Shown here: in pieces, positions 3,875 to 12,007 of the stretch
How positions within the stretch are numbered: the first letter of the stretch is position 1
Layout of the letters: every line of letters starts with the position of its first letter
Assembly (NCBI GenBank): GCA_024742655.1
Contig: JANSYB010000019.1
Coordinates: forward strand, 1-12,261
Source of the DNA: Paracoccaceae bacterium
Lineage (GTDB): Bacteria; Pseudomonadota; Alphaproteobacteria; Rhodobacterales; Rhodobacteraceae
Direction of reading: 5' to 3'
Length of the DNA stretch: 12,261 nucleotides
Notes under the pieces: model-generated
Told to the model about the DNA's origin: nothing
Seen by the model: the letters and a program-made list of their open reading frames with translations, nothing else
Database searches by the model: none
Translations under genes and position numbers: made by a program

Positions 3875-4621
3875 TCAGCCGTCGCTGCGTCCGAGATCAA
3901 AATCCGGCAGGCTGTCCAGAGCGTCCTTGAGGGCTGCACCCCAGTCATCCGCGATCTGGCGGAAATAGGGGTCGCTCAACTCGATCCGGCCATTCGCGCC
4001 GGTGGTCAGGCTGTCGGTTTCGTAGAGGTGGAAATCGAACGGTGCCCCCACGGTCAGGTTGGCCTTGAGCGTGGAATCAAAGCTGACCAGAAGCAGTTTC
4101 ATCGCCGATTCGAAGCTCATCTTCGGGTCATAGGCCCGCACGAGGATGGGGCGGCCATACTTGGTCTCGCCGATCTGGAAAAACGGCGTGTCGCCGCCCG
4201 CCTCGATGAAATTGCCCTCGGGATAGATCAGGAACAGGCGCGGCGGCCCGCCGGCGATCTGCCCGCCAAGGATCAGTGTCGCCTTGAAGGCGCTTTCGGC
4301 CTCCTGGCCCTGCGCGTCGTGCTTGGCGATCACCTCGCGCAGGGTGTCGGCGACAAGGCGCGCGGCCTGGAACATCGACGGCACGCCGAGCAGGGAGGGG
4401 TTGCGCTCCTCATGCGATTTGGTGCGTTCCTCCAGCAGGCTGACGACCGCCTGCGTGGTGGCCAGGTTGCCCGAGGACAAAAGCGTGATGACACGGTCGC
4501 CCGGGGCGTCCCACAGGCTCATCTTGCGAAAGGTCGAAATGTTGTCCAGCCCGGCATTGGTGCGGGTGTCGGACATGAAGACCAGCCCCCGGTCAAGCAT
4601 CATTCCAACGCAATATGTCAT
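3875..4621 (-). CDS. anbu: Anbu, bacterial proteasome-like N-terminal threonine hydrolase
   Basis: A 248-residue member of the Ntn-hydrolase (proteasome beta/HslV) superfamily, Anbu branch. The start at 4621 gives MTYCVGMMLDRG. Removal of Met would expose Thr1; in that numbering Asp17, Arg19 and Lys32 sit almost exactly where proteasome catalytic residues do (Thr1, Asp17, Lys33). Family marks: SDTRTNAGLDNIST (17-30), LLSSGNLATTQ (47-57) and FFQIGETKYGRPIL (147-160). Longer upstream frames overlap the transglutaminase gene and lack homology, and a GAGG site five bases before ATG 4621 overlaps that gene's TGA. It is last in a four-gene operon, seven bases after the transglutaminase-like gene, an arrangement recurrent for Anbu. 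Known members form open, lock-washer-like oligomers, and their natural substrate is unsettled. No HslU, Mpa or other unfoldase is in the window, so it may act on small peptides or tags. Identity is secure; function is inferred. Confidence 0.93.
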   Translation of the reverse strand: MTYCVGMMLDRGLVFMSDTRTNAGLDNISTFRKMSLWDAPGDRVITLLSSGNLATTQAVVSLLEERTKSHEERNPSLLGVPSMFQAARLVADTLREVIAKHDAQGQEAESAFKATLILGGQIAGGPPRLFLIYPEGNFIEAGGDTPFFQIGETKYGRPILVRAYDPKMSFESAMKLLLVSFDSTLKANLTVGAPFDFHLYETDSLTTGANGRIELSDPYFRQIADDWGAALKDALDSLPDFDLGRSDG

Positions 4622-4628
4622 GGTCGCC

Positions 4629-5426
4629 TCACTGCTGGGATACGTCGATCTGAACCTCGAGCACCTCACCCGCGCCCCCGATCCGTGTCCCTGATACGGG
4701 CGCTGCATCGGAATAGTCCAGCCCCGTTGCAACGCGCACGTATCGCGTGTCGGGCGATATCGCGTTGGAGACGTCGAACCCGACCCAGCCAATACCCTCG
4801 ACATGGGCCTCGGCCCAGGCATGCATGGCGTCCTGCGTGGTGCGGTCGTCCAGCATCAGGTAACCCGACACGTAGCGAGAGGGAATGCCCGCCTGGCGCG
4901 CGCAGGCGATGAAGACATGGGTGTGATCCTGACAGACCCCGCGCCCCGCGGTGACGGCGTCTTCGGCACTCCAGCAGGGTTCGGAACTGCCGACCTCGTA
5001 GGCGATCGTGTCGCGGATACGGGCCGACAGGGCATGCAGCCAATCCAGCGTGGGCGCGGCGGGCACCGAGCGTGTCAGCTCGCGCAGCCCGGCGCGAATA
5101 TCCGTGCGCGGGGTCGATGTCAGATATAGCCAGAGCGGCGCAGGCCCGCGGTGGCGGCCCACCACGCCATGCGTATCGCTGAGCGTGACATGCCCGTCGC
5201 AGATCACCTCGATTTCGGTGGCATCACGATCAAAGCTGATCAACTCGGTGGTGTTGTGGTGATGGTCCTCGAAACTCAGTTCGATCTTGCCGCCGACCAC
5301 CCGTGTCGTCCAATCCAGCACCTTTTGCTGGTGCGAGGATTTGGGCGTCTTGCGCACCTGTTGCAGCGCATAGGTGACCGGCATCTCGAACCGGTAGCGC
5401 GTGGTATGATGGATTTTCAGTTTCAT
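4629..5426 (-). CDS. Transglutaminase-like cysteine peptidase family protein
   Basis: A 265-residue cytosolic protein with no signal peptide. Residues 1-80 match the N-terminal beta domain of bacterial transglutaminase-like proteins (MKLKIHHTTRYRFEMPVTYA). The papain-like core follows, with a complete catalytic triad: Cys165 in GRGVCQDHTHVF, His202 in MHAWAEAHVEG and Asp218 in WVGFDVSN. Bacterial members mostly act as amide or isopeptide hydrolases rather than cross-linkers, so hydrolysis or transfer of a peptide-like bond is expected. Two starts are possible. ATG 5438 (MSERMKLK) overlaps the upstream alpha-E stop in ATGAGTGA; ATG 5426 begins where family homology begins, and I chose it. Either way translation is probably coupled to the alpha-E gene, and anbu follows after seven bases. 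Confidence 0.92.
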   Translation of the reverse strand: MKLKIHHTTRYRFEMPVTYALQQVRKTPKSSHQQKVLDWTTRVVGGKIELSFEDHHHNTTELISFDRDATEIEVICDGHVTLSDTHGVVGRHRGPAPLWLYLTSTPRTDIRAGLRELTRSVPAAPTLDWLHALSARIRDTIAYEVGSSEPCWSAEDAVTAGRGVCQDHTHVFIACARQAGIPSRYVSGYLMLDDRTTQDAMHAWAEAHVEGIGWVGFDVSNAISPDTRYVRVATGLDYSDAAPVSGTRIGGAGEVLEVQIDVSQQ

Positions 5427-5430
5427 CCGC

Positions 5431-6372
5431 TCACTCATAGAACCTGAAATCCACCTCGATCTGGCGGGCCACTTCGGAAAGGTGGACCAGAACGCTCTGG
5501 ATGAATTCATGCAGCCCGTAATCGAAGATGGCCGAGACGTCATGGGTCAGATACCGGGTCTGCAATTCCGTCACCTTTTCAAGCGAGCGCGCGCGTGTGC
5601 GATTGCCCGCGTTCAAGTAGCGCAGGTTATCCGTCAGCTTGTCGGCGCAAAACGCAAGGCTGCGTGGCATCCGCTTGTCCAGGATCAGAAAGTGCACGAT
5701 CTGGCGCGGCCCGCCCGTGGCGCCGTATTCCATGCGGAAGCCGCCATTGGCCGACACCGCGCGCAGGATGCTTTCCCAGTGCACGTTGTCGATCTTGGTG
5801 CCGACCGCGCTGACCGAGGGCAGCAGCACATAATATTTCACATCGACGATGCGCGCGGTGTAGTCGGCGCGCTCCAGAAAGGTGCCGATGCGCAGGAAAT
5901 CGAAGATCTCGTTGCGCATCATCGTGCCGTGCATCATGCCGCGCACAAGTGCTGTGTGCTGGCGGATCGTGCGCAGCACGGCGGGCAGGTCGCGCTCGGC
6001 CAGCTTGCGGGCCAGGATACGGTTGCTGGTCATGTAGGTGGCGTTGACCGCCTCCCAGACCTCGCCGGTGATGGCGGTGCGCACCAGCCGCGCGTTCTGG
6101 CGCGCCGCGTCGATGCTGGAGCGGATCGAGGAGGGGTTGTCGCGGCTGCGCAGCATCCAGTTCAGCGCGGCCTCCTTGGTCAGGCTTTCGTTGTTGGCAA
6201 GGAACGCATCGTACACCCCGGCCGATTGCAGGACCGAGGCCCATTCCTCGTCACTGTCGCCCAACCGGGTCAGCGCGATGCGCTGGCCGGTTTCGATCAG
6301 GCGCGCGGTGTTCTCGGCGCGCTCGAGATAGCGCGACATCCAGAACAGCCCGTTGGCGGTCTTGCCCAGCAT
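5431..6372 (-). CDS. Alpha-E domain-containing protein (COG2307 type)
   Basis: A 313-residue, predicted all-helical protein of the alpha-E family, which is almost always encoded beside circularly permuted ATP-grasp proteins and often beside transglutaminase-like proteins and Anbu. The N-terminus MLGKTANGLFWMSRYLERAE is typical. A signature motif occurs twice: YLERAENTARLIE (15-27) and FLERADYTARIVD (165-177), about 150 residues apart, which suggests an internal duplication with charged, possibly ligand-binding helices. No enzymatic activity is established for the family; a role as partner or substrate-holder for the ATP-grasp protein is inference. A GGAGG ribosome-binding site lies within the last codons of the upstream gene, whose TAG is only five bases before this ATG, so the two are translationally linked. 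No membrane segment or signal peptide is seen. Confidence 0.92.
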   Translation of the reverse strand: MLGKTANGLFWMSRYLERAENTARLIETGQRIALTRLGDSDEEWASVLQSAGVYDAFLANNESLTKEAALNWMLRSRDNPSSIRSSIDAARQNARLVRTAITGEVWEAVNATYMTSNRILARKLAERDLPAVLRTIRQHTALVRGMMHGTMMRNEIFDFLRIGTFLERADYTARIVDVKYYVLLPSVSAVGTKIDNVHWESILRAVSANGGFRMEYGATGGPRQIVHFLILDKRMPRSLAFCADKLTDNLRYLNAGNRTRARSLEKVTELQTRYLTHDVSAIFDYGLHEFIQSVLVHLSEVARQIEVDFRFYE

Positions 6373-6377
6373 GGCGC

Positions 6378-7802
6378 CTAATCCTCCAGAACCCAGGTGT
6401 CCTTGGTGCCGCCCCCCTGAGAGGAGTTGACCACCAGCGACCCTTTCTTGAGGGCCACGCGCGTCAGACCGCCCGGCGTGATCTGGATATTGCCGGGGCT
6501 GACCAGAACGAAGGGGCGCAGATCGACATGGCGCGGCGTGAGGCCGCTGCGCGAAAAGATCGGGACCGTCGACAGGCTCAGCGTGGGTTGCGCGATATAG
6601 TTGGACGGGCGCGCCTTGAGCTTGCGGCGAAAGGCGGCGATCTCCTTTTTCGTGGCGGTCGGCCCGATCAGCATCCCGTAGCCGCCCGAACCGTGCACCT
6701 CCTTGACCACGAGATCCCCGAGGTTGTCGAGCACATAGGCCAGTGCGTCCGGCTCCGAACAGCGCCAGGTCTGCACGTTTTGCAGGATCGGCCGCTCGCC
6801 GGTGTAGAACTCGACGATCTCGGGCATGTAGCTGTAGATGGCCTTGTCATCTGCGATCCCGGTGCCCGGCGCATTGGCAAGGGTCAGCCGGCCCGCGCGG
6901 TAGACATCCATCACGCCCGGCACGCCAAGCGCGCTGTCGGGGTTGAAGTTGAGCGGATCGAGAAAATCGTCATCGACGCGGCGGTAGAGCACGTCGATGG
7001 GTTTGTAGCCTTCGGTCGTGCGCATCGCCACGCGCCCGTCCACGACGCGCAAATCGTGCCCTTCGACCAGTTCCACACCCATCTGGTCGGCGAGGAACGC
7101 ATGTTCGAAATAGGCCGAGTTGTAGATCCCCGGCGTCAGCACCGCCACGACCGGGTCATGGTCCAGCCCCGCAGGCGCCGTCGCCGCCAGCGACCGGCGC
7201 AGGTTGACCGGGTAGTTCTGCACCGGGCGCACCCGGTTCTGCGAGAAAAGCTCTGGAAACATCTGGAGCATGGTTTCGCGGTTTTCCAGCATGTAGCTGA
7301 CACCCGAGGGCGTGCGGGCGTTGTCCTCCAGCACGTAGAATTCGCCGGGGCCGGTGCAGACAAGGTCGATGCCCACGATATGGGTATAGACGCCGCCCGG
7401 CGGCTCGACCCCGATCATGTGCGGCAGGAAGGCGTCATTGAGGCGGATCATCTCTTCGGGGATGCGGCCGGCCTTCAGGATTTCCTGATTGTGGTAGATG
7501 TCATGCAAAAAGGCGTTGATCGCGCGCACGCGCTGCTCGATGCCGCGTGACAGCTTGGACCACTCATGCCCCGATATGATGCGCGGAATGATATCGAAGG
7601 GGATCAGGCGTTCCTCGGCCTCGGCCTTGCCATAGACGTTGAAGGTGATGCCCGTAAGGCGGAACAACTCGTCCGCCTCGCGCTGCTTGGCGCGCAGGCG
7701 GGCGGGGTCTTCCTGATCGAACCAAGAATGAAAGCCGCGATAGGGCGCGCGCAGCGTGTCCTCTTTGCCCCACATTTCATCGAAAGGCCCGGATGCGTTC
7801 AT
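6378..7802 (-). CDS. Circularly permuted ATP-grasp protein (COG2308 type)
   Basis: First gene of the Anbu operon, 474 residues from the ATG at 7802 (MNASGPFDEMWG). That start has AGGTGG six bases upstream; an in-frame Met nine codons earlier would lie beyond that site. The family carries an ATP-grasp fold with rearranged order and is predicted to form amide or peptide-type bonds using ATP. Visible marks are VLEDNARTPSGVSYMLENR (157-175), which matches the metal/nucleotide-binding strand of glutathionylspermidine-synthetase-like enzymes, GIADDKAIYSYMPEIV (315-330), the glycine-rich nucleotide loop VVKEVHGSGGYGMLIG (365-380), HVDLRPFVLV (425-434) and a C-terminal NSSQGGGTKDTWVLED (459-474). All look intact. 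Together with the alpha-E, transglutaminase-like and Anbu genes it suggests synthesis and removal of a peptide tag or small peptide, a proposal from comparative genomics that this sequence supports only by gene order. Confidence 0.93.
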   Translation of the reverse strand: MNASGPFDEMWGKEDTLRAPYRGFHSWFDQEDPARLRAKQREADELFRLTGITFNVYGKAEAEERLIPFDIIPRIISGHEWSKLSRGIEQRVRAINAFLHDIYHNQEILKAGRIPEEMIRLNDAFLPHMIGVEPPGGVYTHIVGIDLVCTGPGEFYVLEDNARTPSGVSYMLENRETMLQMFPELFSQNRVRPVQNYPVNLRRSLAATAPAGLDHDPVVAVLTPGIYNSAYFEHAFLADQMGVELVEGHDLRVVDGRVAMRTTEGYKPIDVLYRRVDDDFLDPLNFNPDSALGVPGVMDVYRAGRLTLANAPGTGIADDKAIYSYMPEIVEFYTGERPILQNVQTWRCSEPDALAYVLDNLGDLVVKEVHGSGGYGMLIGPTATKKEIAAFRRKLKARPSNYIAQPTLSLSTVPIFSRSGLTPRHVDLRPFVLVSPGNIQITPGGLTRVALKKGSLVVNSSQGGGTKDTWVLED

Positions 7803-7900: not shown

Positions 7901-7945
7901 ATTAGCGCAATTATTAGGCGATACGCATAAAAAATAGGCGACTTG
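7901..7945 (-). promoter_or_regulatory. AT-rich candidate promoter region of the Anbu operon with a 20-bp-spaced direct repeat
   Basis: This is an AT-rich patch in an otherwise GC-rich window. On the minus strand it contains AATAAT (7915-7910), five of six matches to a -10 box, but no convincing -35 at the right distance. The heptamer TAGGCGA (plus strand) occurs at 7915-7921 and again at 7935-7941, start-to-start 20 bp, two helical turns, as expected for a protein contacting one DNA face. It would control the four-gene operon starting at 7802. Promoter inferred; repeat seen directly. Confidence 0.35.
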
Positions 7946-9805: not shown

Positions 9806-11116
9806 TCAGTACGTGTCTTCGTAGGCGGCGCAGCGCGCGGCGGTGTCCAGCCCCTCGAGATGCGCCAGCTCGCCCTCCTTGTGGGCGCGGTAGACGGCGG
9901 CGAAATCCTTGGGGAACCAGCCGGTGACGACGGGTTCTGAGGTGAACGCCTCCAGCGCGGCCTCCAGGGTTTCGGGCAACCGTACGAAGCCGCGCGCCTG
10001 CAGGTCGGCGGGCGGCAGTAGCGACAGATCCTCTTCGGTGGGGGCGGGGGCCGTCAGGTCGTCCTCGATGCCCTGCGCCCCGGCATGCACGATTGCGGCC
10101 AGGGCCAGGTAGGGCGAGGCGGCGGCATCCGCCGCGCGGTATTCGATATTGAACTGGCGGGCGATCGACGCAGGATCCCGGACCGTGACCGGGCAGACCC
10201 GCAAAGACGCCTCGCGGTCGCGGAAGCCGAGGTTGTTATAGGCCGCCGACCAGCGATGCGGGGTCAGCCGTTCATAGGATATCGCCGAGGGCGCGGTCAG
10301 CGCGACGATGTTGGGCAGGTATTTCAGCACGCCCGCGGCAAAGGCATCGGTCAACTTGGACATCCCGCAGGGGCCGGCCTCGTCATAGGTGAGGGGGGTG
10401 CCTTCGTCGTCCACGAAACTCATGTGGATATGCACGCCGTTGCCCACGCTGGCGACATCGCGGATCGGCGTGAAGGTCGCCGCCTGGCCGAGGTGCCGGG
10501 CGGTCGACCGGGTCAGTTCGCGCAGGATCACGGCGTGATCGGCCGCCCGCACGCCCCGGGCCGGGGCGACAACGGCCTCGTACTGGCTGGGGCCGTATTC
10601 CTTCATGATGCTGTCCGGCTCGAGCCCGGCGGATTTCAGCGCCCCCATCAGAACCTCGCAGAGGTCGCGCTGACGCTCGAATCCTTCGCGGCTATAGGCC
10701 TGATTGACCAGTGGGGCGTCGGACTTGATCTGGAACTCATGCTCGAACGCGCAGACAAGATGGGCGCCGGCCACCGCATGCAGACGTGCCAGCGCGGATT
10801 TCAGGGCCGAGCGCAGGCAGAAATCCCACGGCTCGCCCTCCAGCGTGGTGATATCGCTAAGGATCAGGCGTTCGCGCTGCCCGTTGGGAAAGGTCACATC
10901 CAGATCGGCCTTGGCATCGGGGATCATCAACAGGTCGCCAAGGGCGCCGAACGGCGTTTCCGCGATCCTGTCGAAACAGGTGATCTGCACATTGGTCGGG
11001 GTCCATCCCAGTCCGCGCTGCAGGCGCTTGTTCATCTGGTCGGCCGGAAACGCCTTGCCGCGCACCCGTCCGGCGATGTCGCAGGTGGCAGCAAAAATCA
11101 GCGGCATGGAACTCAT
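9806..11116 (-). CDS. Glutamine synthetase-like glutamate-amine ligase
   Basis: A 436-residue member of the type I glutamine synthetase superfamily. Catalytic-barrel marks: FEHEF with Glu125/Glu127, KEYGPSQYE with Glu173/Glu180 (metal ligands), GNGVHIHMS with His229/His231, SYERLTPHRWSAAYNNLGFR (280-299), ASLRVCP (303-309) and EYRAADAAASPYLALAA (325-341). The fold and ATP/glutamate sites therefore look complete. The N-terminal domain is short and lacks the DGSS-type ammonia-site motif of housekeeping enzymes, and the C-terminal loop reads DLSLLPPAD with no tyrosine where GlnA is adenylylated. It is thus more like gamma-glutamyl-amine ligases (PuuA/IpuC type) than GlnA; the amine partner is unknown. 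The start at 11116 overlaps the regulator stop as ATGA, with AGGGA nine bases upstream, indicating coupled translation and control by that RpiR protein. Confidence 0.9.
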   Translation of the reverse strand: MSSMPLIFAATCDIAGRVRGKAFPADQMNKRLQRGLGWTPTNVQITCFDRIAETPFGALGDLLMIPDAKADLDVTFPNGQRERLILSDITTLEGEPWDFCLRSALKSALARLHAVAGAHLVCAFEHEFQIKSDAPLVNQAYSREGFERQRDLCEVLMGALKSAGLEPDSIMKEYGPSQYEAVVAPARGVRAADHAVILRELTRSTARHLGQAATFTPIRDVASVGNGVHIHMSFVDDEGTPLTYDEAGPCGMSKLTDAFAAGVLKYLPNIVALTAPSAISYERLTPHRWSAAYNNLGFRDREASLRVCPVTVRDPASIARQFNIEYRAADAAASPYLALAAIVHAGAQGIEDDLTAPAPTEEDLSLLPPADLQARGFVRLPETLEAALEAFTSEPVVTGWFPKDFAAVYRAHKEGELAHLEGLDTAARCAAYEDTY

Positions 11117-11961: not shown

Positions 11962-12007
11962 GGGTGATGCGTTGCCTTTCGTTTAGGCAAGGGTGTTTGA
12001 ATTGAGG

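Follow-up and report, generated by a model that had tools for sequence, protein, structure and literature searches.

A four-gene Anbu operon in a Paracoccaceae bacterium and probable NtrC-type palindromes upstream of it

The window analysed here (the whole stretch of 12,261 nucleotides from a Paracoccaceae bacterium; GenBank assembly GCA_024742655.1, contig JANSYB010000019.1) carries a complete Anbu operon, four minus-strand genes running head to tail from 7802 to 3875 and encoding a circularly permuted ATP-grasp protein, an alpha-E protein, a transglutaminase-like (TG) protein and the proteasome-like hydrolase Anbu (Table 1). With moderate confidence, we read this locus as one module under the control of nitrogen status, in which ATP-grasp and alpha-E would form an amide-linked product and TG and Anbu would process it. 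Gene content and order, intact residues, shared distribution, the dependence of Anbu on alpha-E and the sites common to glnB, dusB-ntrBC and glnII are seen directly; we infer NtrC binding, sigma factor use, all of the enzyme chemistry and the product. The case for regulation draws on sequence comparison and the case for chemistry on what is known of the protein families.

This kind of operon and its gene order are already known from publications (Fuchs 2017, PMC5666114; Piasecka 2018, PMC6376114; both consulted, like the other papers cited here, as partial text), which leave the role of the set unexplained; Iyer 2009 and Valas and Bourne 2008 are the earlier works cited in them. Structures of Anbu have been solved, yet the literature found assigns Anbu neither a substrate nor a partner nor a role. 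The shared distribution described below defines a unit to study, the upstream sites indicate that the product should be sought under nitrogen limitation and NtrC control, and roseobacters carrying the operon make the long-standing Anbu question directly testable.

Table 1. Coordinates of the operon genes and upstream palindromes in the window (aa, amino acids)
Feature	Position	Strand	Details
Circularly permuted type 2 ATP-grasp (probable amide ligase)	6378..7802	-	474 aa, operon gene 1; PF14403, PF04174, 3n6x
Alpha-E	5431..6372	-	313 aa, all-helical model, internal duplication; PF04168
Transglutaminase-like (TG), Cys-His-Asp	4629..5438	-	Bact_transglu_N PF08379 and core PF01841
Anbu, proteasome-like Ntn hydrolase, Thr1/Asp17/Lys32	3875..4621	-	248 aa; PF00227, solved Anbu sequences
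Probable NtrC-type palindrome 1, CGCATAAAAAATAGGCG on + strand	7924..7940	.	15.8 bits, matrix of nine non-Anbu sites; top match in window
Probable NtrC-type palindrome 2, AGCGCAATTATTAGGCG on + strand	7904..7920	.	13.9 bits; second-best in window

The four proteins of the locus

The initial annotation, made from the letters of the sequence, had the coordinates, strand and order of the operon right. The ATP-grasp and alpha-E genes are separated by 5 bases and TG and Anbu by 7. If TG starts at the ATG at 5438 inside alpha-E, the two genes overlap by 8 bases; with a second in-frame Met, at 5426, as the start they would instead be 4 bases apart. All four proteins have Pfam matches above the curated cut-offs: CP_ATPgrasp_2 (E 9.5e-167) and PF04174 (E 7.7e-149) for ATP-grasp, Alpha-E (E 5.9e-85), Transglut_core (E 1.9e-21) and Bact_transglu_N (E 4.7e-17) for TG, and Proteasome (E 2.1e-07) for Anbu. 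Residues 5-474 of ATP-grasp align to a solved relative, 3n6x (E 8.5e-193), and its closest named relatives are found in Roseovarius and other Rhodobacteraceae. The sequences of five distinct solved Anbu proteins match the window's Anbu: 5loy (the best, E 1.4e-91), 5nyj, 5nyf, 5nyw and 5lox. The Anbu open reading frame (ORF) begins with MTYCVG, so that the mature enzyme would begin at Thr1, and T2, D18 and K33 of the ORF correspond to mature Thr1, Asp17 and Lys32, in agreement with the solved proteins. The key residues were called intact in the initial annotation and they are widely kept in an alignment drawn from the loci of 58 genomes and from 80 named loci (the two sets overlap in part; rows with no usable ORF or below 35% identity were excluded). 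Of 132 aligned rows, at least 99% have the three Anbu residues; C168, H205 and D221 of TG are present in at least 99% of 138, and 178 columns of ATP-grasp are conserved in 99% of 137 rows.

Anbu resembles HslV and the beta subunits of the 20S proteasome in its Proteasome family match and its Thr/Asp/Lys residues (as given in PMC6376114). Unlike an HslUV-type protease, it has no AAA+ unfoldase gene nearby, as the initial annotation had noted: no AAA+ domain was detected by Pfam in the ten window proteins scanned (a partial ORF at 2-742 lay outside the scan). Published Anbu forms an open ring (PMC5666114), described elsewhere as an open split ring (PMC8665760). In its four families, their order, the Anbu catalytic residues and the lack of an AAA+ partner, the locus is the same as the published Anbu operon. 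In the source genome, which is 85% complete and in 745 contigs, Anbu is the sole proteasome-family match and a separate HslV match was not seen.

Residues 1-97 and 151-253 of alpha-E are homologous (hhalign probability 98, E 1.5e-13) and each half carries an LERA motif; the protein is therefore an internal duplication. Its predicted model, built with 67 sequences, is all-helical with a mean pLDDT of 90.3, and no convincing match was found among solved structures. Fusion proteins of ATP-grasp and alpha-E, of about 800 aa, exist and suggest a direct partnership of the two.

Shared distribution and gene order

We searched 81 genomes sampled from the order, all of them labelled as belonging to the family of the window and, except for the window's own, at least 90% complete. 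ATP-grasp, alpha-E and Anbu are present together in the same 58 genomes and all absent from the same 23. With the TG query, matches were found in 59 genomes; those in the additional genome, G004, are distant, with a best E of 3.7e-14. Both presence and absence of the module are found inside seven genera, and the module has therefore been gained or lost as a whole several times. The four-gene order is kept in 56/58 positive genomes, five of these with a gap of more than 600 bases somewhere, and in 79/80 named loci; the exceptions are two genomes with Anbu located elsewhere (G044 and G052) and one named locus (L143) with no Anbu across the 21 kb examined. It was concluded that the arrangement is not due to chance. 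The co-conservation across Rhodobacteraceae that the initial annotation had looked to is thus borne out (58/81), and frequent separation of the genes in relatives was not seen. In one of the two exceptions (G044), Anbu lies on the opposite strand (L091, 12339-13094) beside a cluster of fused ATP-grasp/alpha-E, TG and large TG, and the other three operon genes sit on another contig.

That cluster is an example of a sister system, made up of a fused ATP-grasp/alpha-E protein of about 800 aa, a TG and a large TG of about 1100 aa. A comparable set in B. cenocepacia (I35_5080-83: ATP-grasp, alpha-E, TG, large TG) is lowered in an ntrC mutant (PMC5491218). The sister cluster is like the window operon in its ATP-grasp, alpha-E and TG families and, in the B. 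cenocepacia case, in being nitrogen-controlled; what sets it apart is the large TG and, going by the listed genes, the lack of Anbu. Identity between the fused ATP-grasp and that of the window reaches only 27-32%.

A second set comprised 150 genomes of the phylum, a few of which are also in the family set. Anbu was found in 59 and alpha-E in 86; both are present in 58, alpha-E occurs without Anbu in 28 and Anbu without alpha-E in one (Fisher p 9.5e-19, with phylogeny ignored). Alpha-E lies within 7 kb of Anbu in 52/59 Anbu-carrying genomes. By this distribution, Anbu appears to depend on the ATP-grasp/alpha-E ligase module. The asymmetry suggests that the ligase module supplies a product on which Anbu acts. 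The sole Anbu genome with no alpha-E match is G172, in which Anbu is at 6035-6775 of L202.

The same counts bear on bulk proteolysis, by which Anbu would degrade proteins for nitrogen recycling and the other three genes would be only loosely linked to it. This idea is among those listed in PMC6376114 and would fit the nitrogen link described below. We consider it improbable in view of the distribution that Anbu shares with ATP-grasp and alpha-E and of the 28/150 phylum genomes with alpha-E and no Anbu; in the partial text of PMC6376114 and PMC5666114, Anbu is also reported with an open ring and no peptidase activity on standard substrates.

The initial annotation had also raised the prospect of a fifth partner. 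None recurs in the roughly 6 kb of sequence flanking the operon on each side in the 58 loci, where the commonest neighbour cluster is found in 13/58. This result weighs on a published proposal of protein tagging, cited in PMC6376114, in which ATP-grasp and alpha-E would mark proteins with a small tag through an amide bond, to be removed by TG and Anbu in the manner of a deubiquitinase. The presence of amide-chemistry enzymes and hydrolases within one operon agrees with tagging. Against it, no acceptor or tag gene of at least 100 aa recurs beside the operon in the 58 loci, a cut below which shorter tags would fall and which leaves room for a tag encoded elsewhere. We regard tagging as unlikely and retain the reading of a nitrogen-controlled module with an amide-linked product.

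Palindromes upstream of the operon as probable NtrC operators

Anbu is reported to be raised in nitrogen-limited P. putida (PMC5666114), and PMC6376114 states a rise likewise for nitrogen starvation. Neither this published link nor the paired upstream palindromes had figured in the initial annotation. A dyad search with no prior motif, run on 56 upstream regions of type A operons (those with an ATP-grasp about 70% or more identical to that of the window, and hence of the window type; type B operons have 50-64% identity), returned GCCT-N8-GGCA in 14/56 against a background of 0.6. The result is an AT-centred palindrome, GCC-N9-GGC. A strict form of it was found at 13 sites in eight genomes, seven of which had been chosen because their Anbu operon has a perfect or near-perfect site, and the reversed-pattern control gave 0. 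Six of the 13 sites precede the Anbu operon, two lie about 380 bp before glnII, one precedes dusB-ntrB-ntrC, two are at the uvrC place (one of them, in the window's genome, placed by shared neighbours only) and two are unassigned. With one mismatch allowed, 16 sites were found in four of these eight genomes (control, 2): three at Anbu, two at glnB, two at dusB, three at the uvrC place and six unassigned. At the glnB sites the adjacent glnA was identified by eye, and ntrBC was seen at one of the two dusB sites. The genes adjoining the palindromes thus include those for P-II, DusB, NtrB, NtrC and GlnII, which are mostly counted in the core NtrC regulon (PMC5343134). The uvrC gene is an unexpected companion of these nitrogen genes; the palindrome precedes it in two family genomes and, judged by the neighbouring genes in common, occupies the equivalent position in the window's genome (L255/L262, L276, L254/L268).

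A scoring matrix was built from nine non-Anbu sites (two glnII, two dusB, two glnB and three from the uvrC place). The two best matches to it in all 12,261 bases are palindromes 1 and 2 of Table 1, which lie in the 155 bases preceding the ATP-grasp gene at a spacing of 20 bp and begin 138 and 118 bases before its start codon. For palindrome 1, the p value as the best score in 300 bp upstream is 0.0015. A site at p<0.05 is present in 40/57 type A upstream regions (2.9 expected), in 10/13 type B regions of the family and in 5/28 other type B regions. Across the 80 named loci (1.51 Mb) there are 23 matches of 13.8 bits or more. Enough sequence was available for 76 of these loci, and in the 300 bp before ATP-grasp 20 of them have a match of that strength and 40 have one of at least 10 bits. 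Loci with a site include L154 (16.3 bits) and L136 (12.1 bits).

The host genome carries dusB-ntrB-ntrC, immediately preceded by two palindrome-type sites (15.8 and 11.1 bits). Its NtrC lacks GAFTGA, an absence that marks sigma-54-independent NtrC. R. capsulatus NtrC works with RpoD and not with sigma-54 (PMC6925177). From these points, together with the sites common to glnB, dusB-ntrBC and glnII, the GCC-N9-GGC palindromes are probably NtrC operators. The literature found on the topic, as partial text, does not name the palindrome.

Several points weigh against this assignment. The GCC-N9-GGC form of the R. capsulatus NtrC box is presumed by us. The matrix is partly circular, as its pattern was seeded from Anbu operons and three of its nine sites come from the uvrC place, and the neighbour genes are unassigned at 6/16 one-mismatch and 2/13 strict sites. 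No site at p<0.05 was found in 17/57 type A upstream regions, and 36/76 named loci score below 10 bits, including four closely related ones of Roseovarius (L122, 3.4; L123, 7.9; L134 and L135, 5.0 each). Pairing is rare (4/57 loci with a second site above 3 bits at 19-21 bp), and a simple scan upstream of the operon found no sigma-70-like promoter.

Two operon types and the proposed product

Upstream of ATP-grasp, a sigma-54 consensus with 9 or 10 of 10 positions was found in 16/28 type B loci outside the family, where about 0.4 would be expected, and a site with at least 9/10 in 0/12 type A loci outside the family and 0/58 family loci; some of the loci compared are closely related to each other. 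In the window, no sigma-54 -24/-12 element was detected upstream of ATP-grasp (best, 7 of 10 positions). Compared with the published Anbu operon, the window lineage differs in having GCC-N9-GGC palindromes instead of a sigma-54-type site. We take COG3484 to be Anbu. The type B sites agree with published links, namely the placing of COG3484 in predicted sigma-54 regulons (PMC12316311), a sigma-54 site at a Bradyrhizobium CP_ATPgrasp_1 gene (PMC13207237) and the B. cenocepacia ntrC mutant (PMC5491218).

In the mechanism that we propose, low nitrogen would activate NtrC, which would bind the two palindromes before ATP-grasp and recruit RNA polymerase with the housekeeping sigma factor, not sigma-54. 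ATP-grasp, together with alpha-E acting as its partner or as a subunit that holds the substrate, would then activate a carboxylate as an acyl phosphate and couple it to an amine, giving a peptide-like or isopeptide-linked product. TG, by thiol acyl chemistry, and split-ring Anbu, as a Thr1 hydrolase, would transfer, trim or recover that product. A broader version can be put forward tentatively: the Anbu module may be a core nitrogen-starvation system whose two divergent operon types are linked to nitrogen control in separate ways, through sigma-54 promoters in many Pseudomonadota and through NtrC operators that do not depend on sigma-54 in the window's family and in some other genomes of its class. 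The family's copies of the sigma-54 type would have switched to the NtrC operator, and ATP-grasp and alpha-E would build an amide compound of nitrogen stress that TG and Anbu would recover.

The peptide system suggested in the initial annotation matches a published proposal for the Anbu set (PMC5666114, PMC6376114). The part of that interpretation that treats the four genes as one module is upheld by distribution and order. The part in which one product is made and then trimmed fares less well, as the partial text of PMC6376114 reports that the Yersinia operon proteins showed no specific interaction with Anbu in pull-downs and that Anbu cleaved 0/3 standard peptide substrates, though ATP-grasp released phosphate from ATP. 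The same source reports that ATP-grasp was unstimulated by glutamate or glutamine, which also counts against the proposed chemistry; its assays used ATP-grasp by itself or combined with Anbu, HslV, glutamine or glutamate, and alpha-E was not among the additions.

Alternatively, the module could make a diffusible bioactive peptide as a specialised metabolite, for instance the agent behind the nematode activity of one metagenomic clone. A table in the review PMC7764037 has an entry for clone jj117, which comes from a metagenomic library of Ulva australis, as a source of activity against nematodes; it refers to a thesis of 2019 and gives the genes of the clone as an ATP-grasp protein, an alpha-E protein, a transglutaminase protein and a protease. 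If that protease is Anbu, this would be the sole phenotype met in the literature found for the four-gene set. The table gives no compound or mode for jj117 and does not name the protease as Anbu. Beside the operon in the 58 loci, no transporter or tailoring gene recurs, and the sites common to glnB and ntrBC suggest core physiology. A specialised metabolite thus seems to us a rather poor explanation, and a nitrogen-stress role for the amide product is preferred.

The third-best palindrome match in the window (11973-11989, 13.0 bits) lies just upstream of an RpiR-type regulator gene. This gene heads a same-strand run with glutamine synthetase-like, FmdA/AmdA-type and SDR genes that ends before the Anbu operon, and the run is possibly a second nitrogen-controlled unit. 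The glutamine synthetase-like protein (9806-11116) is closest to gamma-glutamylputrescine synthetase (NCBIfam 249.5 bits, cut-off 650), and beside it is a formamidase-like protein with a score far below its cut-off.

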